64,000 nt of DNA from Scatophagus argus (taxonomy: Eukaryota; Chordata; Actinopteri; Scatophagidae), in contig NC_058506.1 of the NCBI RefSeq assembly GCF_020382885.2, forward strand, positions 3,162,001 through 3,226,000, given 5' to 3'. This document shows positions 6,193 to 49,893 of this stretch, piece by piece. The notes beneath the pieces are model-generated. The model was not told where the DNA came from and made no database searches. It saw only the letters and a list, made by a program, of their open reading frames with translations. Both the position numbers and the translations under genes were made by a program. Every line of letters begins with the position of its first letter. Positions within the stretch are counted from its first letter, which is position 1.

Positions 6193-7374
6193 ACAGTTCT
6201 TCCAGCACTGACCCCTTGATTATCTAGCGCTCAAATGTTGCATTCTACAGATCATCTATGAAGAAAATGCACCATTTATCATACAGAACAAATCTGCATT
6301 GGGACTCTTGCAGATATATAATAGTAATAATAATAAAGGATGTTAGAAATGTCTCTTTCTTGTAGCCCAGGTGTGGGTTAACTTCACAAATATTGAAATG
6401 TTTGGTCAACATTTATGACTTTGTATAGGTGGTGTTTTGTGAAAGTTTTTATCTGTGTGTGTACTGCAGCTTTTCTGTTCAAGTGTTGACTGTCATGGTA
6501 AAAACAAAGCTGGTGCTCTCAATATAGACCAGCCATATTATACCATTTTAATGAAGCCACCATATAAGAACTGATTTGACAGGAAGGTGTACATTACTTT
6601 TTCTCGTCTCACATCACTCTGCATTATTGTCCAAATATGAATGTTGAGGAAGTTATTTTTGGTGAGCCTACCCACCTCAGCACCCGCCGGTGTAAGGTGG
6701 CCCTCTGTCTGAGGTCGTGGTAACCATAGCAGGCCTTGGAAAGTGAAATGCGATGCGACGGGCCCTCTGGGCTGTGTTTCTGAATCACAACTCCATAATG
6801 AGCTGGCAGAGCTCAAGCGGCATCAAAGATGCAGCACCCCAGTATCTGTTTCAACTCACGATGTACAATAGTGCAGTGTCACCTGTACAGGGGGAGTGAA
6901 CGTGGTGGGCTCAGGAGGCATACAGAGATACTGAAGACTTTCTACCACCCATGCATCCTCGCACCAAGCTCACACTGTCACACATGTGTCTGCTGCACTC
7001 ATCGTTGGTGCTTTGACATTGTTATGTCTTCCTTTAATCCAAAACACACATTAGAAGTGCTCTAAAATAACTGTAAAATGTTTCAAATGTAAGATAACTT
7101 TATACATTTAAGCATGAACACATACACACACTGTGTCTTGGCAGTGGTTAGAATTTGATTTGAAAGTGTTGTAGTTGAATTTTTGTTAGGGAATGATGTC
7201 GGTATGACCTGTATTTGTAAGCAGCAAGATGCTGTAGCTTCACCGCTCAGTAATGAGTCATAAGACCTGTAATGATCAATAAATAAGTTATATGTTTTCT
7301 CACACAAGGATTACTCATGCAGCTTACCAGTGATGGTTGTCAAAGATCACCTTGACAGATTAAGGTTATTGTCA

Positions 7375-15500: not shown

Positions 15501-18500
15501 CTCACACCATCAGCAGTACAATTTGTGTGTTTCTCAAAGGATTTTGCCACATTTCTTTTGTACTCCCTGACAGTATGCATGTGTTTGTTCTGAGAAGAGG
15601 AGTAAATGCATGGATTTATTCCGTAATTGCCATTGTTAAACACAAAGCTTCAGCTTCATTTATGCTATGTCTTGATTTTTGCTGTCATATAAATAAATTA
15701 GAATATTATTACTTTTATTTCCTGCTGTCTTTACTGTTTGTGGTCAGTGCAGGCAGGATCTGTCACTGCACAACCAGCTGCTTGCACTGTTTGGATGGGG
15801 CTAGGGTGCATCTGGTTATTGCTGGGATTTGGGCTAGTCCATAGGACCAGCATTGGGAGTGTGAACCAGACCTGTCAGTCCTATGGTTTGACTTACAGAT
15901 GAATAATGTTAAGGCTAAGTCTGTGATTGGGCTCTGAAAACAGAAAGCCACCAGTTTCAACAGGAAATACACTGAATTATGGAAACAAGATTCTTTAAAT
16001 ATCACACACAGTACCTTTAAAAATGTTAGACTTTGAAAGAGTGTACAGAGTATGGAATGTTTTTTTTATTTATTTATTTTAATGCTTGGTTGTGTGCCTA
16101 TCCTGTTTGCTGAGGTTTATGTGTCTTTTGCAAACAATACAATAAATTATCATCGTTATAATAAAAATGTCTGTGCTCCCTGACAGGCAACCCCACCCCT
16201 GAAGAAGAAGAAGCCCGGAGGATCTCTGAGATGGGTAAACCCATTCTAGGAGAGCACAGCAAGCTAGAAGTCATCATAGAAGAATCTTGTGAATTTAAGG
16301 TGTGTGAGTGGCTGTCATTACACCAGCAGTAAAGCAACCCTGTACTCAGTGACAAATAGATTCTTGAATGCAAGGGACGGGCAAGCATATTTCATGTAGT
16401 CTTAATTTATGACCTAAATATGAACGCTGCAAGGGTTGTTGCAGTGTTGCAGACAATGTGGGAAAGTATGTGTATATGTGACCTATTTCTGCCCTCTTAT
16501 GCATCAGACTCCCAACGGAGTACTAGACCAGGTACAGTTTCTGCCAGTTTCTCTCATCTCATTTTCTCATTAAAAACTCTGTGCTTTTATTATAACAAAT
16601 ACTATTGTATATTCACACCATCTTCATCTTTTCTCATGCATGATGTGCATCTTGATTTAGGATGCACTGTATCCCTGTGTGCCGTGTGTGACAAATCTGG
16701 GTCAGTCAATTCTAGATTGAATTCAAACTGTGCAGAACAGTGAAGCCTGCGTTTTTGCCAAGAACTACATTTTCTTCCTTCAGTACATACAGCACAATAT
16801 ATGAGTCTGCTTTGTTTACTCAGGAGAATTAAAGCTTTTATCTTTTGACCAGTCTCCAAAAGAGATTGTATAAATTTTATTATTTTATTTGACGTGGATG
16901 TGAACCCATCTGTTTTGCGTATACTAATATGAACTATAATTACTTTTGCGTCATTACTAATGTATTTAATCTGTTGTAACAGAACACAGTGGACAAACTC
17001 CTGAAGGACACAAATCTGGCCTCAGTGATTGGCACTCGCTCGTGGAGAGAGCAGTTTATTGAAGCAGTCACAGTCAGTGCAGGTCAGTGGCTATAATGTT
17101 TATTTTCTGAGTGCTTCTTATATTTATTATTTTTTAATCATATGTTTTGTGCAGCAGCTACAAAATTCTGTCTCATTTGTTTAAACCATACAAAGTTGTG
17201 TGAAAACATGAAGCTGTTTATGGAGGAGTTTTGTCTTGGTATTGACCATGTCCAAAAGGTTATGCTTGAAGACTTCCCGGCTGAAAGTTAGATGTGTAGA
17301 TCAATACAACTCTGATGTCTGCCCATTAAACATGGGACTACTACTATAGAAACCATAATGATTTTTTTCACATTAGTACAATAGATCCACTATTAAACAC
17401 ACTTTACATTCAAAAGAAATGGCAAAAGCTACCCAGGTATATTATTCTCCACCATCTCCACATGTCAGTCACTTCCTAGGTTGCCTGTAGGTATGAAGAC
17501 CACCCCATGCCAAAAAAGTTGCAAATATAACGCAATAACACTGTGGGGCTTAGAGTGAAAGTTAAAGAGGCACAAAGACAATTAGACAATTAGTTGATTA
17601 AAATTCAGGCATGCTCCTGATTAGCCCAGAATCTGATAGCATCATTTGTGGATGATGATCTGCCTTTTGATCACTGTGTTTTCTTTAAACAGGTGACGAA
17701 GACGAGGAGGAAGGACAGGAGCAGCGAACACCGAATTGCTTTGACTACTTCATGCACATATTGTGCATTTTTTGGAAGATTCTGTTTGCCTGTATCCCAC
17801 CCACTGAGTACTGGAATGGCTGGGCATGTTTCATGGTGTCAATCTCTGTCATTGGTTTCTTAACAGCCATAATTGGAGACCTCGCTTCCCATTTTGGCTG
17901 CACAGTTGGCCTTAGAGACACTGTCACTGCAGTGGTCTTTGTAGCACTGGGGACTTCACTTCCTGGTAAGTGATTTTACTAGTGAGTCTCAGTTTTCTTT
18001 TGCAATACAGAATATATTCCCATATGGGAGGTATACACAGCAATGGCAATTCAATTTATTCCTGAAGTCCAATCTGGGGTAACAAACACTGAAAGGTTAT
18101 TATGTGGAACTACTGAACCATTTATTTTCAAACTTCACTCTTTTTTCCAGATACTTTTGCCAGTAAAGTGGCTGCCACTCAGGACCAGTATGCTGATGCA
18201 TGTGTGGGAAATGTGACAGGAAGCAATGCGGTTAATGTGTTTTTGGGCATTGGAGTGGCCTGGACTGTGGCTGCTGTATACTGGGAAGTCAAAGGTAAGG
18301 TCTTCCGTGTGGACCCCGGCTCACTGGCCTTCTCCGTCACACTCTTCACCATTTTTGCATTCTTCTCAATGGGAGTGTTAATGCTGCGCCGCAGGCCGTC
18401 CATAGGTGGTGAACTGGGAGGTCAGCGGATCCCCAAAATCCTCACTTCACTGCTGTTCTTTGGACTCTGGTTCCTATACATCCTCTTCTCCAGCTTGGAG

Positions 18501-18527
18501 GCCTATTGCCATATACAGGGCTTCTGA
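9520..18527 (+). CDS. slc8a2: Plasma-membrane Na+/Ca2+ exchanger, NCX2-like (complete CDS, 12 coding exons)
   Basis: This electrogenic exchanger moves about 3 Na+ in for 1 Ca2+ out. Exons: 9520-9867, 10016-10153, 10576-10803, 10890-11168, 11886-12317, 12864-13225, 14728-14831, 15359-15376, 16187-16299, 16983-17082, 17693-17965, 18151-18527. Phases join without a break to give 923 aa (human NCX2 about 921). Residues 1-27 look like a signal peptide. The alpha-1 repeat has ALGSSAPEI (148-156) and the alpha-2 repeat has ALGTSLPDTFAS (from 792). The basic/aromatic XIP region starts at RRLLFYKY (about 261). Two Calx-beta calcium-binding domains lie at about 405-530 and 530-690, with acidic [13 protein letters not shown] and [10 protein letters not shown]. 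The protein ends [12 protein letters not shown]. The subtype is chosen from the central-loop sequence WLKRGLSALLLNQG, which matches NCX2, and from the 19q13-type neighbours. The fish paralogue slc8a4 is not formally excluded. Unlike the large mammalian exon 2, the N-terminal half is split by five introns. Confidence 0.93.
14728..14831 (+). other. slc8a2: slc8a2 coding exon 7 flanked by UG-rich intron sequence
   Basis: This 104-nt exon encodes the end of the second Calx-beta domain ([18 protein letters not shown]). It sits where mammalian NCX1 and NCX3 have mutually exclusive exons A and B. The acceptor must be the CAG at 14725-14727: the CAG three bases later would give an immediate stop in phase. 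TG-rich tracts precede it (14681-14703) and follow its donor (14832-14850). I found no second, alternative EEYEK-type exon in the adjoining introns. Confidence 0.8.
15359..15376 (+). other. slc8a2: slc8a2 18-nt coding microexon
   Basis: The segment CACTGCTGCTAAACCAGG lies between a TTCACAG acceptor and a GTAAGA donor. It completes an Ala codon and adds LLLNQ plus the first base of Gly, exactly the family sequence SALLLNQG. Both phases fit. It matches the small exon region after the alternative exons in other NCX genes. Confidence 0.85.
15404..16022. repeat. Possible MITE-like insertion between terminal 'TTAAAGGT' sequences
   Basis: The intron between the microexon and the next exon starts its repeat-like portion with TTAAAGGTGCAAC (about 15404). 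It ends with GTACCTTTAAAA (about 16020), an inverted match of the outer bases. The interior has no coding potential. The terminal match is short, so this is a weak call. Confidence 0.3.
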
Positions 18528-23700: not shown

Positions 23701-26700
23701 GTTGAACATGTTTATATAACTCAGGTTATAGGTCTGTGGGTTCTGTTTAGCTTACAAGAAAATATCACGGGTTTGTCTATATTCTTAATTATTTGTCCCT
23801 TTTCTGATATCTGTTATACAGTACTGAATTCTACCATATTTAGTATATTCAAAAAAATATTTCAAGTTTATATCAGGTTTCATGTCTCAGTGTTTGCTCT
23901 TCCAAAAAGAATACATTTCTGTTTTCATTCTTTCAAGGGTCATTGTAAGTGATAATAATTGTGTGATACTATGATATTTTCTGACACAGTTATAATACAG
24001 TGAAAAAGATCTACTGTTGTAATCCTGCAGCAAAGCAGTATGTTTTTGCATGTTTGGTATTTTTCAAGGTGATGTGTGTGCTGTGACATCAAGTGTGCTT
24101 ATCTTATCAGGACTCTGAACATATCTGTGTGCATTTGTAGGATGTGCTCTACACCATTTGTAACAACTGTGGTCCCGTACAGAGGATTGTCATCTTCAGA
24201 AAGAATGGTGTTCAAGCCATGGTGGAATATCCTTTTCAATGACTGACTTATTTTTACTGGCCACGTTTTGTTACATTTGGGCACACTGCTGTTGTACACT
24301 ATGTTAATGTTTATTTTAATTTTATCTTCATGTATCAGACCTCACCTTAACTCGTTGCTGCCACATTTGATTCGGTCCAAAGTGCCCAGAGAGCCAAAGC
24401 TTCTCTGAATGGGGCAGACATCTATTCTGGCTGCTGCACACTAAAAATTGAATATGCTAAGGTAAGTGTAGGATGGTATCTTATCAACCTCAGTGCCTGT
24501 TGAATTAATGGGAAACGATTTTTGATTTATTTATTTTGTGATGCAATCCTTTTCACAGCCAGCACGCCTTAATGTCTTCAAGAATGACCAGGACACGTGG
24601 GACTATACAAACCCCAACCTTAGTGGCCAAGGTAACATGCAATCCCCAGTCCCTTCTTCCCCCTTTTTTCTTCCTCTTTTCCTCTCATGCCACTGTATGG
24701 GACGGTCAGGGTTCTCTGCCTCAGGGAGTATTGCCTTTGATCACAGATGAATGTTTGTTTTTTCACTTTTCACTGTGCTGCTCAACTCAGTGTTCAGAGG
24801 CAGTATTCCTGTGATGCCTTTACAGTCCTCATGCATTTTCTCACCACACAGCAGGCTCAAAGTAAGGGCATGAGGAGCAACCTCAAGGGCAGCCAACCTC
24901 GATGACAAGCTCATGCATGTGAAAAGCCCAACACACCCATCACAGTAGCATATGCAAGCGCACCATTCTTCACATAGGTTCACATCCCTATAGAGCATGT
25001 CACAGCTGCACAACCTCACATCCCTGCCTACTCGAATCCAGTTAACACTTAAGAGACTTATCACACTCGTTAGCGTTCTTTCAAACATAGTGGAGATTTT
25101 ATTATAGCGTAAATTAGACAAATCAGTATTCTGCACTAGCCGGCAGAGTTGAACTGTTGTGGTCACTAGGCAGACCTCTTTAAGGTCCCGTGAACAGACT
25201 CCTGTGGTGTTAAATATCTCCCAGTTTTTCATGTAGTGTCGGAGCGTAAACAGTAGAATGAACATGGTCTTTGGCACTGTGTTAATGGGCATTAAACATA
25301 TCACGATCAGCAGAGTCGGTAGTTTATGATGTTGGATGACTTCTCAGTCTGTGATAATATTGGATGGATGATTTTGCACATGAGTTATTTAAAAAAGTGA
25401 CATTTAACAGTAAAGAAAGCGGTGGGACTTTAGTATAATAATGGAGCAAATCTTTTGTTATGTTTTGCATGTCAGCATTGATGAAACAACAGATACTTGA
25501 CACAAGAACATTTTGCATTCTTGGGACCTTTCATTCAAATCATGTATTACAAACACATTTATAGTGTTATCTATATGGTTAAGTTTTCAAATGAATATTT
25601 GTAGCATCAACAAAGTCACATCGTTTTGAGACTCCCTGGTGACACAGCTTATATGGAGATAGGTTTTTAATGGTAGCGATTATGTCATTTGTTACTAGTT
25701 TATGTGTTCGGTTGATGTAATTTTAAAACAATACGTTTAAAAATTGCATGCCTGTAACCTGCCGGAAATAAACTTAATAGGCCACTTGGCACTTTGTGGT
25801 GACAGAGATTCTTCTCTTTAACTTCAGAAACCAAAATATATGTTAAAATACAGGATGTTGTGAGATGGAAGTAGACAAAGTGGTGAGATGGAAATAGAAC
25901 ATTTCCTAGATATGTTGCTGCAGTCTATAGTATTATATTTTTCCCTTATATTCTGTGTGGTCAGTGGTAGAATTTTGCTGTGATTTTAAACCTGATTAGA
26001 AACAACGACATTTTGTACAGAGGAAATGTTTTTCTTTTTTTTCTTTTTTTTTCTTTTTTTTTTTGCCAAACACTGTAAAATTATACAGTTCCTTTTCTTG
26101 TACACAACCCGGACCACAACATGTACATTTCAAGGTTCATACAGGTTTTTGACATCTTTGTTGATATACTAAAGTTTGTGCTGCCTTACCAACTAGAGGT
26201 ACTCCTTGTGTCCTCACTGTGCAAACTCATACAGGCTTACCTCAACCTCTAAGCAGACACAGCGGCCTCTACAGCTACAGTATAACAGCACCCACAGCCA
26301 CAACTAATGTAAATCTGCTATGTGGCATACATCGGACACAGTGGGGCCAAAAAATACTGGAACACAACCTCAACTCAGTACTTCCTTTATTCCAAGTCCA
26401 TCATCACCCTATCTCCACCACCTGACATGGGAGTCCATTTTTACTTTTGGTGGTGGGCCGTAGCCACCATTTCAGTTTGAGGGACAGAAATACTCCAAGG
26501 CCATGCGAACAGACACCTCGCATATCCACCACAGACTGATGTTGATAGATTGATAAGCATCTACCACCAGCTCTTTACCAGTACAGCACATCTCATCTGC
26601 AGAGCCCTGAGGAGTCACCACTTTTGACACGACACATTGATGGTGAGGGCGGGAGTCAGGTGTGTGGTTGTTGTGACCACGCCTCCTAGCCCTTTGGATG

Positions 26701-29700
26701 TGCCTGCCATAACACAACCACAGGGAGCAACAGAGGAGTTTTCAGACACACTCAGCCCGACCAGGGAACAGACGACACCACATACTGGGGCAGTAAACAA
26801 AAAAGAGGCCATTCTCTTTCTCAGATGCAAATACCGATCGTCTCTACCTGCCTGTGCTGAACAAAACATGACAACACAACGAGCTGAATATCCACGGCAA
26901 CACACAGCTGAACCGCCACGACAGCACATCGTCATGCAGTTACTGTCAAGCACTAGATGCCTTTTCACTTTGCAACTGGCCGACAGCTATTAAACCAAAT
27001 AAGCAAGCATCACCTGAGCGTCCATTTTTACATGAGAAGAAATATCCACAGGGGGGCCTATGAAGACACAAGCATCAAACACCTCTCAAGCATACAAGCA
27101 CAGATGCAAACAGATAAAACATTCTTTCCTAAAGCTTTCCACATTTATGGACTCTGGTGTTCTGTTTTTTTCCCTGTACCTTCCTCCCCATTTCCCTCCT
27201 TTTCTCTGTGCTGTTCTTGTATTGTTTCTGCGTTGTTTCATTTTCCCTTTTTTGCACTGGCCCATAGTGATGCCTTTAACGCCTCCCGTGTGATGCAGGT
27301 TTGGCTCAGTGTGTCTGTGGACAGACAGCCCACTCTCAAACGGTGCAAATGTCCTGCTTTGTGGTCAGAGCACGGTAAGCTGGAAATGAGCCTCTAATAG
27401 CAACTCTCAAAACAAAGTGGCTGCAAGTCAGAACCAAGCGTGGATATGTGGATGTACTTTTCTCTCTGGTGGTGGGGATGCAAGGAAGGAAAGAAGGAAG
27501 AAAAGACTGAAGAGGGAGAATGAGTTGAGGCTGGAGTCAAGAGGTTGGCGGGTAGCATCCTTGCTGAAGACTGCCCCCTACCTGCCCACTGTGTCCCATG
27601 CTTCATGTGTGGTGCTGTAAGTACTTGACAGAAATAAATGAATAATATGACTTGATGGTTACGAGTTTAAAGTTACTGTGACACAAAAGCAACATTACTG
27701 TCGAACCTTCATGTTAATACTACAATATCTACAATATCATCTAGACCAATAGTAACACCAATTCACCAGTGTAATTGACAAACTAGCTCTGAATTATGTT
27801 GGCAACTTTCTATTCATGAATTACAATATTCTAACAATTTGCTACATTATAGCCGTATGACTGATCTCGTGTTTGTTTACCAAGTACCTTTGTAACCAAG
27901 AGGATGGGTGGATGTGGGCTTTCAGTAGTTTACAATTCTTGATTGTAGATAAAATTTACTTCTGTTAAGGGAGTTTTGGCTTGTACTGACAGTTTAGATT
28001 GATCTTAAAACATTGTCAGTTAATATACAGGTGTGGATTTTTATTGCTCATTGTTTTCATTTGTTTTTTAAGTATTGTTCTAAAGTTGCTGTCACCTCTG
28101 GAGGTGGCACAGAGAAGGTTTTATTTGCTCCTTTAAGGGTATAATGGAAATGAGAGAGATTTTTTAAGGTTTTTATTTCTGTACACTATGTGTTGAACAA
28201 AAATATAAGAATTTGTTATATATTTGCACTGTACTTTATGTATATTGCAGGAATATGCAGAATTGGTTGTGGCGCTTGTAATTAAAGTCCCAGTTGGTGA
28301 CTTGTCCCAATGATTTCCACCTGTATTACCCATTGGTATGTGTCTTTAGTGGCACAGCTAATTAGCAATCTGCAATTCGAGGCATATTACAAGCAAGCAT
28401 CCATTGAATTATTAGTATTAACTTCATATCTCTTTCAGGGAAATTCAGTGCACTGTCAGTGGACTTTTATACACCATCTGGCAGTATTTATATAACACTG
28501 TACCAGCAGTGTCTGCGCGTGAAACATTTCGCAGATAAATATCTATGGAACTGTTGCATTTGAGATGGTAACTGTTCTGGGTAACAGATGTGAAATAGAT
28601 TTGATGTAATAAGTGTAAATGAAAATCTTTTTGACGGGCCACTGTAGAACTACAAGAGAACTGATGCAGTATGGTGTCATTGTGTACTTGACACTGTGTT
28701 ATATAGACTGAGATGTTTGGGAAAATGCATCATAAAACAACATTTAAGGGTACATTTCACTTGGCTCATACCCACTGATGCTTCTGGAACGTTGATGTCG
28801 AACAGTTCTGACTTTTCACAAACATCAAATTATCATATGATAGTCATGAGGAAGCAAGTCCTTACTGCCTACTGTTCTGATTCAAAACTCGCTTTGTTTT
28901 GATGAAAAATAATATACACCGTGTCCATAACCAAAGTTATATCTATTTATCGAAAAGTAAGATGAGAACAGTAAATGCTGTTTTCATAAACAATTCTTAA
29001 ACTTCATTGAAGGGCCCCTACTAAATAGGTGGCTGTTATGGACCATTATGAAGACTGTCAGTAATTACTTTTGTTGACTTTTTTAAGCTAGTCCACAATT
29101 CGTGTGTCATTTTTCCCTTCCACAATGTAATCCAGTCAGTACTGATGTCTATTCACTACTGATGTTACACACGTGTCTTATCTTGGTTTGTAATAACTGT
29201 ATAGTTCTCATAGTTTTCAATAAAACGTTCTTAACAGGTGCTGGCCGTAACACTGATTTATATTTTCTCACTGATCTTCTACTTGAATGTTTTTTTTTTC
29301 CTTGTAGTTGTCTAGGACGTAAAGAAATGTGTTTATACAGTGTTGCCAAATTTCTACTCTTTTTAATGTTAATTTGGATTTGACATGTGTATATGTGTAC
29401 CTGCACAGATGCTGATGGTGAAGGCAATTGGAACAATTCACAAGGTGTGTGCTTGTATTAGGATCGCTGTTAGTAGGAGCTATATTTCACAGTCATTGTT
29501 TAAAAAAAAAATCTCCATTATGTCTTGTATTGGATCAACAAAATAGAACCTGCAGAATTTGTTAACACGCTAAAGATGTCAGGCTGCTCTGTTGCATGTG
29601 AATCACAACCTTGTCCCTTAGCACATTGTAGCCCATATAAGGTACCTGTTTGTACTTTTAGCAGGATGTTTGATAGCCAGCTTTTATCTTACTATTTTAG

Positions 29701-31583
29701 ATCCCAATGCTAATCCCAACAAACGCCAGAGGCAGCCTGCCCTTCTTGGAGACCACCCACCTGATTATGGTAAATATTTTGTAAAGAAATTGGGCTTCCA
29801 TGTAAAAGAATGCATCCCACTCCAATAATGCATATGTACCTCATGTATTTGTTCTCTCCCTCTAATTAAGGTGGCCCTCAAGGAGGTTATCATGGCTACA
29901 ATGACGACAGTTATGGTCCGCCTCCTCCCCACCGCATGGGGCCAGGAATGGGTGGACGTGGTCGTGGTAGCCAGCGCTATGGTCCTGGATATGGACCACC
30001 ACCTCCTGAGTATGGTCCTCACGCTGACTCACCAGTTCTTATGGTGTATGGCCTTGAACCCTCAAAGATAAACGCTGACAAAGTCTTCAACATCTTCTGC
30101 CTCTATGGCAATGTAGAGCGGGTGAGTCAAACATGGGGAGCATTAGTAGTTAGACGCCTCCTTTACCTTTGAAAAAAATCAAATTCAATGAATTCATTTG
30201 ACAGTGAAGTGGAAATGCTTAAAAAATTTCACTGTTCATGGAAGTCTATCAACAAATGTTTGGTGTAGAACAGCAGTTGGTAAGTTAGTTGACTGACAGA
30301 AAAATGTCTAATGACTTTTCTAGTTTTTTCACTATTTTGTACCATTTCATTGACTAAATTATTAGTTAGTCAAAAAACTAACTGACAGATGTGTGTGAAT
30401 CATCTGGATGTTTTCTTCCCTTCAGGTTAAATTTATGAAGAGTAAGCCTGGAGCAGCAATGGTAGAGATGGGAGACTGTTACTCTGTGGACAGAGCCATC
30501 ACTCACCTCAACAACAACTTCCTTTTTGGACAGAAACTCAATGTTTGGTAAGAGCAGCTGTCCAGTCCGTCACTAAACGTGGCATCATGACGTGGCATAG
30601 ACTGTGAAACAAATGGTAAGAGTGCAGAGCTGGATATACTGATGTAACACCGCGGACCCTCTTTCCATGGCAGTGTGTCCAAGCAGCAGGCTATTGTGCC
30701 AGGGCAGTGCTACCAGCTAGAGGACAACACCAGCAGCTTCAAAGATTTCCATGGATCCCGCAACAACCGCTTCACCTCGCCAGAGCAGGCGGCCAAGAAC
30801 AGAATCCAGCACCCCAGCAACGTCTTGCACTTCTTTAACGCACAGCCTGACATCTCTGCAGAGATCTTCAACCAAGTAAGAAAAGCCACAAGGATTCTAT
30901 TTGAAGCATACGGTAGATTTCTCTGTCCGTAGCCTGAGGTGTTCACTGAAACTGGTCTTATCCTCCAGGTCTGCGAAGAACTTGGAATTAAGAGTCCCAC
31001 AAGTGTAAAACTTTTCACCGGAAAGAGTGAGTAATAAAGAGTTACATCCAAGGTAGTGCACACTGATTTTCCCAGTGGGTTCACTTGAGTTAAGATTGCA
31101 TCACATACTTTCCAGCGGGTTTTGAACATTGCTGTGTTGCTTGTTAAGTGATCTCTACATGTATATTAATGAATCATCTTAAAACCTGTACAGATCTGTC
31201 TACTTCACAGCACTAAAACACAATTGAATATTATCTATTATGGTAATCTGATCAGTTATCTTGTGCCTCCCAAAAGGCGAGCGAAGTTCATCAGGTCTTT
31301 TGGAGTGGGAATCCATCAATGATGCCATGGAAGCCCTAGCTATGATGAACCATTACCAGATGAAAAACCCCAGTAAGTTCTCATCTGATTACATTAACAT
31401 ACCAACATGGTTCTTCAAAGTTGGCCATGAATTTTTATGAGTCACTTTTTTTTTAAGCCTTCACAATGCCTTTACCTTTATCTTAATGTGTTTTTGTTTG
31501 TTTTGTTTTTTTTCTTTCTTACAGGTGGGCCTTACCCTTACACACTGAAACTGTGTTTCTCGACCACACACCATGCCAATTAA
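20795..31583 (+). CDS. hnrnpl: Heterogeneous nuclear ribonucleoprotein L (complete CDS, 13 coding exons)
   Basis: This nuclear RNA-binding protein controls splicing through CA-repeat and CA-rich elements. Exons: 20795-20878, 21374-21492, 22461-22698, 24141-24226, 24365-24461, 24559-24631, 29701-29769, 29871-30121, 30426-30547, 30674-30875, 30969-31026, 31277-31372, 31525-31583. They give 517 aa (human 589, which has a longer Gly-rich N-terminus). RRM1 is at about 40-114 (SPVVHIRGLVDG, MPKKRQALVEYED), RRM2 at about 131-212 (RIVIFRKNGVQAMVEFDSVQ), then a Pro/Gly/Arg linker with NPNKRQRQ. RRM3 is at about 308-385 (PVLMVYGLEPSKIN, FMKSKPGAAMVEM) and RRM4 at about 425-512 (NVLHFFNA, SSSGLLEWES). 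The start at 20795 (MAAAAGRYYGEGGRATKR) matches the human MAAAGG...RYYG context. An in-frame ATG at 20756 would add 13 residues. The sequence is closer to HNRNPL than to HNRNPLL. The intron after exon 4 is AT-AC, and intron 6 is about 5 kb. Confidence 0.96.
21777..21945 (-). mobile_element. Partial LTR related to the complete retrovirus at 44011-51510, antisense in hnrnpl intron 2
   Basis: Read on the minus strand, this stretch ends exactly in the LTR terminus (GCTTCAACA, + strand TGTTGAAGC at 21777). It carries the segments around CTCTCACATCAACC, AGATCTTTG and GATCCCAC...TTGGC of the complete LTR. It lacks the duplicated ACTCTGTTTTAA segment of the complete copy and diverges at scattered positions. 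Only R/U5 and part of U3 remain. It is an older, truncated insertion or solo-LTR remnant of a sister subfamily. Confidence 0.8.
22000..22176 (+). repeat. Probable LINE/retroposon 3' end with (TTGAA)n tail
   Basis: The block ends 'aaataaagtgttttgaattg' followed by further TTGAA units, the kind of A/T-rich end and short tandem tail left by fish non-LTR retroposons. It sits just downstream of the LTR fragment in hnrnpl intron 2. No coding remnant is visible. Confidence 0.4.
22755..23090. repeat. Degenerate teleost MITE relic(s) ('CGATTA...AATTAATC' type)
   Basis: Segments such as 'gattaggcaattaatcaatg', 'tcacctttta', 'caaacaactgattaatta' and 'aattaatcagtaatgaaagt' belong to a very common fish non-autonomous element with GATTAAT-rich ends. 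It is intronic in hnrnpl and interrupted by a T/A-rich stretch. Confidence 0.45.
24227..24364 (+). other. hnrnpl: U12-type (AT-AC) intron of hnrnpl, 138 nt
   Basis: The exon ends ...ATG GTG GA and the intron opens ATATCCTTTT, the exact U12 5' splice-site consensus. It closes ...CTGCCAC just before ATTTGATTCGG. A branch-site match ACCTTAACT (24344-24352) puts the branch A about 14-15 nt from the AC, the spacing expected for the minor spliceosome. Only this AT-AC excision restores the conserved RRM2 reading VEFDSVQSAQR. No GT-AG pair here keeps the frame. Confidence 0.92.
24880..25030 (+). promoter_or_regulatory. hnrnpl: CA-rich cluster 1 in hnrnpl intron 6 (candidate hnRNP L binding)
   Basis: The sense strand is dense in CACA/ACAC and CAUC-type motifs, for example 'cccaacacacccatcacag', 'ggttcacatccc' and 'gctgcacaacctcacatccc'. 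hnRNP L family proteins bind CA-rich RNA. This lies about 250 nt after the exon 6 donor. The regulatory role is inferred. Confidence 0.4.
26219..27120 (+). promoter_or_regulatory. hnrnpl: CA-rich cluster 2 in hnrnpl intron 6 (candidate autoregulatory element)
   Basis: About 900 nt of sense sequence is strongly enriched in ACA/CACA motifs: AACACAACC (26361), AACACAACCACAG (26711), ACAACACAAC (26871), CAACACACAGC (26899) and GCACATC near 26924. Base composition differs sharply from the AT-rich intron around it, and stops are scarce in several frames, which explains the spurious open frames. It lies directly upstream of a long pyrimidine tract and candidate exon. Human HNRNPL is reported to regulate itself through CA-rich elements around a poison exon in intron 6. 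Confidence 0.55.
27268..27374 (+). other. hnrnpl: Candidate poison exon in hnrnpl intron 6
   Basis: A roughly 100-nt pyrimidine-rich tract (27163-27262) leads to the acceptor GCCCATAG. A strong donor, CACG|GTAAGC, follows 107 nt later. Joined in phase to exon 6, which ends with one codon base, the exon reads eight sense codons and then TGA (V-M-P-L-T-P-P-V-stop). Its length is not a multiple of three. Inclusion would truncate the protein after RRM2 and should trigger nonsense-mediated decay. Exon numbering (after exon 6), the CA-rich upstream cluster and the in-frame stop all parallel the autoregulatory exon 6A described for human HNRNPL. No transcript evidence is available here. Confidence 0.6.
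30180..30395. repeat. Degenerate MITE relic in hnrnpl intron 8
   Basis: The stretch contains 'gttagttgactgacagaaaa', 'tgtctaatgacttttctag' and 'attgactaaattattagtta', resembling the GATTAAT-type fish MITE also seen at 22755 and 63590. It is weakly preserved. Confidence 0.3.
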
Positions 31584-33474
31584 ATACTCCTCCCCCCCAA
31601 ACTATTTGTAACATTCTGTGTATTTGCATAGAGTATAATAATGTCACGCCCCATTAAAACATTCATTCAGTATTGACAAAATCTAGGATTCATGTGGTTT
31701 AGAACATGTTACTTAAACTATTATTTTGTATGATAAATTTTGCCATGCTTTTCAGTCAGTTGTTTATTTTGTATGTTCACAACACTAAATTTTAATTACC
31801 CCCACTACCCTGAAATAACATTTTGATGTGGACTCTTTTTTTTTTTTTTTTTTTTTTTAATCAAGTGAATAGAAATAAAAATGTGAATATTGATATAACC
31901 AAGGTTCACATCTTCTGAGATGGTTTGTTTTGTATTCTTCATTTCTTCACTCTTTGTAGGGAATCATCCATGTCCTTTCATGGAGAAATAAAACTGCATT
32001 TACTGGCAAGATCTTCCACAGAGAAGCAGCTGTTGTTTTCAGAATGGAAAAGTGAAACTGACTTCTCTGCATGTGCTGAAGTGGTTGGGGTGCTTTCCAT
32101 CGTTATGAATATTAAAGGATGGTAGAGATGAGGGTGATGGTTATATGTTTATACATTATGTTACTATCAACATTTCCGTGTCACATGTCACTTCTTGTTG
32201 TAAACAATACTGTGAATATCATTTTGACTGAAATTAATCAAAAAGTCCTCCATATACCTATATTAGAGAGCCTTGCTTAGATCGAGAAAAGCCAAGTTAA
32301 GTACAGTTTGAAGTAATTACATGTACTCAGACCTACATTACATGATTTTCAGTATCACAGTTTGTATTCATGTTCAAGTTACAAATACATTAAAGACATT
32401 TCTTTCAACAAAATAATAACTGAGCTTTTTGCTTAGCAGTCATAATTCTTTACTAATAAGATTGTGGATTATTGGCAGCCCACCCAAAGTACATGACTGG
32501 AGATGAAGAATTTATTTTTACCTACTGATGCTTAGTGTTGACACTACTGCTCGGATAATTTTTGGCTGCATGCATACATCAATCAGCCACAACATTAAAA
32601 CCACTGATAGTAGTAAGTAAAATTAGCAATGCAATGTGTCTGCATTGACTAGGTGGGTCTTGTGCATCAAAGAACATCCACATGATGGCCCTAAGTTTGC
32701 CCGCAGAACATTGCATGAACATAGGATTAGTTTTATTCACGTCTGTGAGTGGTTTTAACACATCCAACTGCACTTACTTCTGGACAACAACAAACAACTA
32801 TCTAATGTCCATGAATACGAGTTACAACCCGTCCTCCTCAAAATAACCACCGCATCATTGTCTGCATCATTTTCTTAGCTGAAGCTTCAAAACCAGATCT
32901 GACGATTATCAGGGTCGCTGGTAGAGAATCACAACCTTATTGAAACCATGTGCAGGTAGCTATTTGCAACAGAACACTTATTTTCCATGTTCCTTAAACG
33001 ACTATTTGAACTAAAGTTTACGACGGCCATGGGAAAAGGAAAATATTTCTGCACAGGTAATGATGGTTTTGAAGTTGAGCTGATTCCTACCTATTCCTAC
33101 TAATTCCCTTCCCTGGTGGTTTGCACACTTTTACACACGGTTACAGTATATGAGTAACAGAAAAAGACAACGGCGTAAGAATAAAACTACAACTCCCAGA
33201 GTGCCCTCAGCCTCAGTCGCGTAGGTGTTTCCGGTGTCTTATGACATTTTACTTCCTTCCACACGGACCGACACGAACAAATCGAGAAAGAAGACGTTGC
33301 TAACTTTCAAATGCCATCGTCAGTTGTCGCGTTTCGAGCTTAGTTTTCGTTTCATTTCCATCGTAAAATGCACGGTGTGTGGCGAGAGGTGTCTGAGAAC
33401 TGAAGAATTGTTGAAAACGTAGACCGTAACGTGTAGGCCTCTGAAGAAAGTTTGGTCGAGGGCCTGTAAACAAC
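31584..33474 (+). other. hnrnpl 3'UTR and irf2bp1 5' flank/5'UTR
   Basis: No coding exon is visible. AATAAA at about 31987 is a likely hnrnpl polyadenylation signal, and a T-rich homopolymer tract lies at about 31838-31858. The last few hundred bases before 33475 become more GC- and CpG-rich, as expected for the irf2bp1 promoter and 5'UTR. A repeat relic at 32578 is listed separately. Confidence 0.5.
32578..32772. repeat. MITE-like relic with 'CAGCCACAACATTAAAACCACTGA' left end
   Basis: The left end is a widely distributed teleost repeat end. The right end, GTGAGTGGTTTTAA, is its approximate inverted counterpart, giving a degenerate terminal inverted repeat around about 190 bp without coding potential. 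Confidence 0.5.
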
Positions 33475-35241
33475 ATGTCCTCCGCCTCGCAGTCTTCCTC
33501 CAGACGGCAATGGTGCTACCTCTGCGATCTGCCCAAGATGCCCTGGGCAATGCTGTGGGAATTCAGCGAGGCTGTGTGCCGGGGATGTGTAAACTACGAC
33601 GGGGCAGACAGAATAGAGCTCCTCATTGAAACTGCCAGGCAGCTGAAGAGCACGCATGGAGTTTTAGACGGCAGATCCCCCGGTCCACAGCAGGGAAAAC
33701 CCAGCTCGGCTGGGCCCATTGAAGCAGGGCGGCAGCATGGAGAGCGTACAGATAGGGGGAGGGGTGAGTATGGGGTGTCTTCTCGCCTCCCCAATGGCCT
33801 GCATAGAGCTGAAGATGTGGCCTTGTCAGAGGGCAGCAGGCAGAGCCCAAACACTCGTCGGGCTGTAATTGGAGCAGTTCCTAGTCTTCATGGAACCATA
33901 TCTCATGCCTTGATAGCTCAGGGGTTAGTAGCAGGCCCTCATGGGCTTTTAGCCCCATTATCAGGCTCTAGGGCAGGGGCAACACCTATTGCTGTCTCAG
34001 CTGGCCCCATAATGAGTGATGCTGGCAGAAGACAGGCTCTGTCTCTGGGTATGGGAGCTAGCACCTCTGCTCTGGTGGGTATAGATCCTGCAGCATGGAG
34101 GAACAATGAAGTGATGGCAGAACTGAATGAGGTGGCTCGCAGCAGGGTTGAAGGCTGGCCAAACCGTCCCAAAGCAGTCCGGGAAGTACTTGTAGCTCTC
34201 AGTAGCTGTGTCCCCTTCAATGTACGCTTTAGGAAAGACCACAGCCTGATGGGTCGTGTGCTGGCCTTTGATGCCAGCACAACTCCAGAGTTTGAGCTGA
34301 AGGTGTTCGTGGAGTATCCTGCTGGCTCCGGAATGATCTTCTCAGGTGTTCCAGACCTGGTCAGGCAGATGTTCCGTGACTCAGCCAAAGATGCAGGTAA
34401 AGCGGTGAACTCTGGTCTACGCTATGTGGAATATGAGAAGCGGCAAGGCACAGGAGACTGGCGTGCGCTGTCTGAGCTGTTGAATGATGGTGTCCGTATG
34501 TTTAAAGAACCCCCAATCCCAGAAGTTCTGCCACAGCCAGATGCAGGGTTGCCTATGGCAGCCGCTGGACGCCCTGTGCCAGCAAAGAGCACAGCTCGGC
34601 GCCGCAAGGCATCCCCAGGCTCTGAGAATGGAGAAAGCGAAGGGAGGCCTGATCACCAAGCAAGAGAAACCTGGTCCAGAGGTGCTTACTCAGGCATGGA
34701 ACCTCTTCCTGGCATGGCTGCCTCTCAGGAGGGCCCACCTCGTTTACACAGCCAGCCCTCACCTATTTCAGCACTCATGGGAGTTGCAGACAGCCTGAGC
34801 TCCAGCCAGATGGCCAGAGATAGTCCCAGCATGTCCACAGCCCACTCCTCAGCCGGGCGCCCCACCAGCAGCAGCCCCTCCACTGCCTCCACCTCAGTCT
34901 CCCAGGCAGCCTTGGGTCAGGTGGGTCCAAGCAGCAACACCAGTGCTGGGGAGTCTACAAGCAGCGCTCAGGGCACTCTGCTCTGCTGTACCCTCTGTCG
35001 AGAGCGCTTGGAGGACACTCATTTTGTCCAGTGTCCCTCTGTTCCACACCACAAGTTTTGCTTCCCGTGTACCCGAGGATTCATCCGCAGCCAAGGTCAA
35101 GGAGGGGAGGTGTACTGCCCCAGTGGAGAGCGCTGTCCTCTGGCTGGATCCAATGTGCCTTGGGCCTTCATGCAGGGAGAAATCTCGACCATCCTGGCCG
35201 GTGACGGAGATGTGACAGTAAAGAAGGAGAACGACCCTTGA
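33475..35241 (+). CDS. irf2bp1: Interferon regulatory factor 2-binding protein 1 (complete, single coding exon)
   Basis: This nuclear transcriptional co-repressor binds IRF2 and is proposed to act as an E3 ligase. It has 588 aa (human IRF2BP1 584). Residues 9-58 form the N-terminal zinc finger (RRQWCYLCDLPKMPWAMLWEF, then CRGCVNYDGADRIELL). A conserved middle block reads RPKAVREVLVALSSCVPFNVRF and GRVLAFDAS, followed by a basic ARRRKASPGSE nuclear-localisation-like motif. A Ser/Thr/Pro-rich linker leads to a C-terminal RING (about 504-560: CCTLCRERL, HFVQCPSVPHHKFCFPC, YCPSGERCPL). The end AFMQGEISTILAGD...KKENDP is diagnostic. IRF2BP1 is preferred over IRF2BP2 or IRF2BPL by length, RSPGP and SRLPNGL motifs, absence of the IRF2BPL polyglutamine tract, and 19q13-type neighbours. 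The start codon is the first ATG before the zinc finger. Confidence 0.95.
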   Translation: MSSASQSSSRRQWCYLCDLPKMPWAMLWEFSEAVCRGCVNYDGADRIELLIETARQLKSTHGVLDGRSPGPQQGKPSSAGPIEAGRQHGERTDRGRGEYGVSSRLPNGLHRAEDVALSEGSRQSPNTRRAVIGAVPSLHGTISHALIAQGLVAGPHGLLAPLSGSRAGATPIAVSAGPIMSDAGRRQALSLGMGASTSALVGIDPAAWRNNEVMAELNEVARSRVEGWPNRPKAVREVLVALSSCVPFNVRFRKDHSLMGRVLAFDASTTPEFELKVFVEYPAGSGMIFSGVPDLVRQMFRDSAKDAGKAVNSGLRYVEYEKRQGTGDWRALSELLNDGVRMFKEPPIPEVLPQPDAGLPMAAAGRPVPAKSTARRRKASPGSENGESEGRPDHQARETWSRGAYSGMEPLPGMAASQEGPPRLHSQPSPISALMGVADSLSSSQMARDSPSMSTAHSSAGRPTSSSPSTASTSVSQAALGQVGPSSNTSAGESTSSAQGTLLCCTLCRERLEDTHFVQCPSVPHHKFCFPCTRGFIRSQGQGGEVYCPSGERCPLAGSNVPWAFMQGEISTILAGDGDVTVKKENDP

Positions 35242-48779: not shown

Positions 48780-49893
48780 TGGAGGAGTCCGGATGGACGT
48801 CTTATTCTACCCCAGGCATGAGAAAAACAGCGCTAGAGGAGGCGCATGGAGTAGGACACGTGGGAGCAGCACAGATGCTGAGAAACCTGGAGAACTAGTG
48901 GTATCCTCACTTGAAAGATATGGTAAAACACTGGGTAAGAACATGTGAACTTTGCACCAAGTACAATGCCAGACCGACCATCAAAACTCGAACCGGGTAA
49001 GTATCCTCTCGAAGTATGACCAGGGAAAGAAATTATCATAGATTACACAGATATGATAACCGCAGTAAGAGGGTACAGATATGTTGATGTGTGTGGATGT
49101 GTATACAGAGTGGCCGGAGGCGTTGCCAACAAAAAGGGAGGATAACAAGTCAGTGATTAAGTTTCTGATTAATCACTACATTCCTCAACATGGGTTCCCA
49201 GAGAAAATTCGATCAGACAATGGGACTCACTTCAAAAATCAAGACCTCCAGCAGGTGGAGGCAATGCTAGGGCTGAAACATTCATTTGGCACTGTTTACC
49301 ACCCGCAATCACAGGGCAAGGTTGAAAGGATGAATCAAACAGTTAAGCACAAATTGGCAAAAATATGTGCACAGACTAACCTGACCTGGCTAGATGCTCT
49401 ACCCCTGGTGCTCATGTCCATTCGAAGCTCCATTAACCAGAGCACAGGGTTCTCTCCTCATGAGCTACAAACAGGGAGAGCTTTTCCAGGTCCCATGACA
49501 AAATTGATTGGGATTGGTGAAGACAAACAAAACCTGACCACAAGAGCATATTTTAAAGAACTGCAGTCTTTCGGTTCAGCTTTTGCCAAACAGGTCACGG
49601 ACCGACATGAGGGGGCGCACGAGGCTTCGTCACCAGAGGTGAATTGGGTCCTGTTGCGGGTAATCAAAAGCAAGTGGTCGGAACCAAGGTGGACTGGACC
49701 GTTTCAGGTGGTGAAGAGAACTTCGCATGCAGTCCGACTGAAGGGTAAAGGAGACACCTGGTACCACTGGAGCCAGTGTGCAGCAGCGGAGGAACCGCAG
49801 CGGTCCCTCTTCGAGGTCCACCAGGACCTCCAGGCAGCAAACACTGACCCAACTGGGTTGGCCGTGAGTCACACACACAAAGGGGCAGAATAA
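48780..49893 (+). pseudogene. Integrase region, largely open
   Basis: The N-terminal HHCC zinc-binding region is split by a stop (AHGVGHVGAAQML, then TCELCTKYN). From 49081 an uninterrupted 270-codon frame holds most of the catalytic core, including [26 protein letters not shown] and QGKVERMNQ with the acidic triad. The C-terminal GPFQVV and WYHWSQC elements typical of gammaretroviral integrases follow. It ends at a stop at 49891-49893. Confidence 0.85.

Follow-up and report, generated by a model that had tools for sequence, protein, structure and literature searches.

A probable counterpart of the human HNRNPL exon 6A poison exon in intron 6 of Scatophagus argus hnrnpl

Exon 6A of human HNRNPL was reportedly the subject of work by Rossbach and co-workers in 2009, and a CA-rich cluster extends over about 800 nt ahead of this exon. 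The self-limiting circuit of the human gene has been borne out by later papers. In these, a conserved poison exon lies in HNRNPL intron 6, hnRNP L promotes its inclusion, and exon 6a is among the exons reactive to the knock-down of decay factors (PMC8652244, PMC7764535 and PMC6547761 between them). Later papers also place the human exon at GRCh37 chr19:39332253-39332322, a span of 70 nt (PMC6547761), class it among cassette or alternative exons (PMC7764535, PMC6885243), state that it holds an in-frame stop (PMC6885243) and term it highly conserved (PMC8652244). In PMC11914300, hnRNPL figures mostly as a loading control. The HNRNPLL gene carries a poison exon cross-regulated by hnRNP L (Rossbach et al. 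2009, via PMC7764535 and PMC8652244), and the poison exons of SR-protein genes and of SNRPB are examples of autoregulatory splicing coupled to decay (PMC7764535).

Among the titles and opening lines of abstracts listed, a scope that holds few subscription papers, none presents itself as an account of this exon in fish, and none combines hnrnpl, teleost and poison exon. Given this limited scope and the term "highly conserved" in PMC8652244, the fish copy may be known to genome-alignment browsers. Here we present a 76-nt segment in intron 6 of a fish hnrnpl gene which is likely to be the orthologue of the human HNRNPL exon 6A feedback switch, i.e., a cassette poison exon whose presumed dependence on hnRNP L and whose presumed coupling to decay are modelled on the human gene.

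The hnrnpl gene and its sixth intron

The window, i.e., the whole stretch of DNA analysed, comprises 64 kb of contig 14 (positions 3162001-3226000), and the genome searched amounts to 570,666,677 bases in 48 contigs. The window contains an hnrnpl gene on the + strand, on which the parts of this gene described below also lie, and named fish proteins stand among its closest listed matches (e.g., Pleuronectes platessa, 96% across the aligned region). By tblastn with the protein P0027 and others, and by translation, exon 6 was placed at 24559-24631, ending ...NPNLSGQ in phase 1; the host intron 6 (24632-29700; 5,069 nt) is skipped in the protein P0136 (NLSGQDPNANPNKRQRQ), and the next constitutive exon, exon 7, occupies 29701-29769. 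The end of exon 6 at 24631, its phase and the location of the candidate in intron 6, before 29701, are as a first-pass annotation had given them. A second hnrnpl gene (the paralogue hnrnpl2), whose linker exon is 77% identical to that of the window gene, is present on contig 5 (C5), and its intron 6 of 3,306 nt lies within a 10 kb stretch (L005). Contigs 10 and 2 (C10, C2) each carry a more distant, hnrnpll-like gene. Within 24600-29800, no Rfam family matched at gathering scores.

Three signals named by the first-pass annotation are present in intron 6. The long pyrimidine tract that precedes the exon (27163-27262) contains 82 pyrimidines in 100 nt, a value reached by 0.025% of the 100-nt windows in the 64 kb; an AG follows at 27266-27267; and the strong donor GTAAGC at 27375 has a matrix score of 8.98, ranking third of the 336 GTs in the intron. 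Under loose criteria, the 64 kb contain 10 similar acceptor/donor pairs on the + strand and 19 on the opposite strand, with nine distinct donors on each, and the combination of pyrimidine tract, AG, donor and TGA is by itself not beyond chance expectation. As such combinations are not rare, the case for the exon was made by comparison.

Several other observations concern the same gene and its surroundings. At the 5' end of intron 6, ~370 nt (24632-25000) resemble the intron-read-through parts of the proteins P0177, P0180, P0183, P0184 and P0187 and include a possible donor, AAA/GTAAGG, at 24862; this segment may provide an alternative donor or hold a further regulatory element, or the resemblance may simply reflect close relatives as the source of the proteins, for which reason the segment was set aside. 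Intron 4 (24227-24364) resembles a minor-spliceosome AT-AC intron (ATATCCTTTT ... CCTTAAC ... AC), and joining across it yields protein as in P0027; in the hnrnpll-like gene on C2, ATATCCT ... CCTTAAC ... AC is found at the matching position. Elsewhere in the window, one 598-aa frame with IRF-2BP1/2 domains spans 33445-35241, a reading frame encoding a retroelement-type integrase core domain, probably a mobile-element remnant, is found at 49069-49893, and one with a sodium/calcium exchanger domain at 18117-18527.

The acceptor block and the start of the exon

When intron 6 of the window gene was compared, with the intron ends trimmed, with that of the C5 paralogue by blastn, two matches exceeded the best score (31.9 bits) obtained in 200 dinucleotide shuffles, one of 54.5 bits at 29394-29451, which covers a 36-nt cassette exon (see below), and one of 44.6 bits at 27277-27305; the next-best match between the two introns scored 25.6 bits. 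The 44.6-bit block is identical to L005 7445-7473 at 27 of 29 nucleotides. Its sequence (TAACGCCTYCCRTGTGATGCAGGTTTGGC) comprises a plausible branch point, a short and weak pyrimidine stretch, the acceptor TGATGCAG with its AG at 27297-27298, and the seven bases beyond, which open with GTTTGG and would be the first of the exon. Beyond these seven bases likeness fades quickly: an alignment of both fish exons has p 0.02 over the whole exon and p 0.37, not beyond chance, once the first 7 nt are removed. No copy of the block was found at the hnrnpll-like loci (best 20/37, in 10 kb of C2 and 30 kb of C10), including the C10 intron 6 of about 8.1 kb (L009-L007), and none in the viral contigs scanned. 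In the C2 gene, intron 6 measures 164 nt (L008 7941-8104) and is hence too short for a poison exon together with a CA cluster.

The join of exon 6 to this acceptor is found in a protein. In P0027 (27 member sequences from 10 contigs; source tag lgn, taken as assembled public reads; apparently of fish origin), five exons that lie apart in the window, with introns between them, are joined; the protein then goes on with GLAQCVCGLTAHSDMVQMSCFVVR, which matches 27298-27369 at 87.5% over 24 residues, and after exon 6 it continues as GLAQCVCGLTAHSDMVQMSCFVVRR and a stop. In the aligned exons it is nearer to the window gene than to the C5 gene. The junction of exon 6 with exon 6A, therefore, appears to occur in the RNA of a relative, and its use in S. 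argus would be expected by analogy. A search of the region with the truncated fish protein returned P0027 alone (one of two candidates), and scans of viral and prokaryotic contigs for relatives of P0027 gave no match.

Two of the three protein searches gave the best 120 of 270 and the best 120 of 150 matches, and among the matches listed (187 proteins fetched) the motif of the exon 6 end is present in 125, six of which have a 6A-type end by pattern: P0027, P0031, P0032, P0037, P0044 and P0073. In the last five, exon 6 is immediately followed by G[SP]QC[ML]F; P0031, P0032 and P0037, which contain TPSFRTV, begin this extension with GSQCMFDGTPSFRTVL or GPQCMFDGTPSFRTVL, and the two bird proteins P0044 and P0073 show variants of that reading. 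The fish-type exon 6A is seen only in P0027 among the proteins listed. A recognisable likeness between the fish and the amniote exon peptides was considered and rejected by a shuffle test, no alignment being significant in six comparisons (p 0.11-0.54).

Because the peptides failed this test, its place was taken by a DNA test with 23 nt of human sequence, namely the primer for detecting exon inclusion printed in PMC6885243 (the exon is called exon 7 in that paper), which translates to TPSFRTV in one frame. In a first test on the window exon, with no limit on position, p was 0.016 by 2,000 shuffles and 0.013 against 383 intron windows, the exon itself included. The 23-mer aligns with score 9 at offset 27 in the window exon and at offset 23 in the C5 exon, compared with an offset of 23 derived from the peptide for the human exon. 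With 5,000 shuffles each, the score alone has a p of about 0.02 (0.0196 in the window, 0.0178 in C5), and the score combined with an offset within 6 nt has p 0.004 in the window and 0.0046 in C5, a limit which was set after the first alignments had been seen. Among AG-started pseudo-exons, 4 of 293 in the window and 3 of 210 in the C5 intron reach score 9, and all of them overlap the two exons. The exon sequence thus appears homologous to that of the human exon, as judged from 23 nt and a post hoc limit on the offset.

These comparisons bear on where the exon begins. The first-pass annotation had drawn an exon of 107 nt (27268-27374), entered at the outer AG and closed by TGA after eight codons. 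Such a start has some attractions: the AG at 27266-27267 comes right after the long pyrimidine tract and is picked up by a simple acceptor rule which misses the inner site, weak by composition (23 pyrimidines in 40 nt), so that composition alone would favour the outer AG; the eight codons and the TGA do read as described, and in C5, too, AGs occur between the T-rich tract and the conserved block. We nevertheless regard it as quite improbable, since the conserved block begins downstream of the outer AG and contains the inner one, P0027 uses the inner AG, and the offset of the human piece agrees with the inner start. For the first two of these reasons the acceptor was placed at 27297-27298 and exon 6A at 27299-27374 (76 nt), with the donor at 27375. 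The stretch 27268-27298 is then most likely intron, in which the TGA (27291-27293) would fall inside the 3' splice site and the outer AG may see minor use. The poison exon is, in short, very likely real and had been drawn 31 nt too long.

Reading frame, stops and exit from the exon

Joined to exon 6, the 76-nt exon 6A reads GLAQCVCGQTAHSQTVQMSCFVVRA and has no in-frame stop of its own, the stop following outside it. By translation, each of three exit routes leads to a premature stop within four codons after the exon: splicing to exon 7 gives ...VVRARSQC and the TAA at 29711-29713, splicing to the 36-nt cassette gives ...RARC and a stop, and retention of the downstream intron gives ...RAR and a stop. 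The stop in exon 7 lies 56 nt before the end of that exon and is followed by more coding exons, a position that fits the usual rule for nonsense-mediated decay; by this geometry, messages including exon 6A would be expected to be degraded. The in-frame cassette exon itself (29409-29444; DADGEGNWNNSQ), placed by the intron comparison and by translation, lies downstream of exon 6A and before exon 7. Its C5 copy is a 33-nt version (L005 8452-8484); a close variant of the cassette is included in the protein P0003, and the cassette is absent from P0136 (Merluccius).

The exit from exon 6A may also be read in another way, in which exon 6 is joined to 6A and the downstream intron stays, so that the product is a detained-intron or alternative-end transcript and no cassette. 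P0027 ends RR and a stop, which fits reading into the donor (CGgtaa) and is compatible with an unspliced downstream intron, and P0037 (...KRPMVRAMQN) can likewise be interpreted as running past the donor. Yet the donor at 27375 is strong, partly spliced RNA can occur in assembled contigs, and PMC7764535 and PMC6885243 describe a cassette or alternative exon in human. We consider this alternative unlikely, and the cassette is the reading followed hereafter.

In the C5 paralogue the exon holds its own stop after GLAICG; with a frameshift in the window gene and an internal stop in C5, the poison effect of inclusion would arise differently in each gene. The C5 donor at the homologous place, CCA/GTGGGC, is weak (3.1) and would give an exon of 67 nt if used; use of a stronger donor (6.04) located 230 nt downstream would make the exon 297 nt long. 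The weak C5 donor, together with the rapid divergence of the exon body, could suggest a relic, i.e., an exon once used and now rarely spliced, with no regulatory role in this fish. That reading is very doubtful, since the branch-point and acceptor block has stayed 27/29 identical between the duplicates, no other intron match apart from that of the 36-nt cassette rises above the shuffled maximum, and P0027 points to use of the exon in a relative.

The CA-rich cluster and comparison with known feedback switches

As the first-pass annotation had reported, a CA-rich cluster lies directly upstream of the exon (26180-27135; defined by ACA and CAC counts, its outer edges judged by eye), and it includes the richest + strand windows of the 64 kb. 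With 400-nt windows the + strand maximum is found at 26711-27110 (48 ACA + CAC; mean 17.9, sd 7.0), the three best windows of the – strand, elsewhere in the 64 kb, having 55, 51 and 47; with 700-nt windows the + strand maximum is 75 (26227-26926) and the – strand maximum 79. In L005 the richest + strand window (6833-7232; 54) stands directly before the exon, and a richer one (65) occurs in the neighbouring stretch L006, outside the C5 intron 6. Over the 700 nt ending 140 nt before the conserved block, the counts on the + and – strands are 69 vs 17 in the window and 79 vs 11 in C5. The clusters of the two genes gave no blastn match above background, so that what has been kept is composition and not sequence. 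An extended CA-rich cluster precedes the exon in both paralogues, where it is proposed to act as a splicing enhancer to which hnRNP L would bind, raising inclusion.

The mechanism that we propose is borrowed from the human work and from the anatomy of the locus. When hnRNP L protein is plentiful, it would bind the cluster at ~26180-27135 and aid the spliceosome at the weak 3' splice site, with a putative branch point near 27279 and the AG at 27297-27298. Inclusion of exon 6A would shift the frame and bring a stop a few codons on, in exon 7, within the 36-nt cassette or, where the following intron is retained, at the donor; nonsense-mediated decay would then clear the message, and hnRNP L would limit its own level by negative feedback. 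Because the C5 paralogue keeps the same layout, the two hnrnpl copies probably limit each other as well.

The suggestion that the element is the fish counterpart of the poison exon in HNRNPL intron 6 gains from P0027, from the 3' splice site kept in the paralogue, from the co-linear human match and from the CA cluster in both paralogues. More tentatively, and with somewhat less than even confidence, the locus may be viewed as an ancient three-part module, made of a near-frozen block from branch point to acceptor, an enhancer defined by CA composition and a drifting exon body that breaks the frame or carries a stop, with all three parts kept in both duplicates, with hnrnpl and hnrnpl2 forming a mutual dosage circuit, and with hnrnpll copies that have no such block.

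If the orthology is right, the self-limiting circuit of hnRNP L predates the split between ray-finned fish and tetrapods, and the constrained parts of such a switch would appear to be the acceptor block and the CA bias and not the exon body. Primers, knock-outs or splice-blocking oligonucleotides built on the 107-nt exon would partly target intron, and fish with two copies would allow a test for one feedback loop common to duplicated splicing regulators.

The closest described system is human HNRNPL exon 6A, with which the window exon shares the gene, the intron, the phase after exon 6 and truncation upon inclusion, as well as the preceding CA-rich cluster and the co-linear 23-nt match. The differences lie in the length, 76 nt in the window and 67 nt in C5 if the weak donor is used, compared with 70 nt by the human coordinates (PMC6547761); in the stop, which in the window gene follows a frameshift and falls outside the exon, whereas in HNRNPL it is described as in frame and inside (PMC6885243); and in the exon body, largely diverged between the fish exons and the human one. 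The poison exon of HNRNPLL has the same logic as the fish hnrnpl exon in a paralogous gene, and those of the SR-protein genes and SNRPB show similar autoregulation in genes unrelated to hnrnpl.
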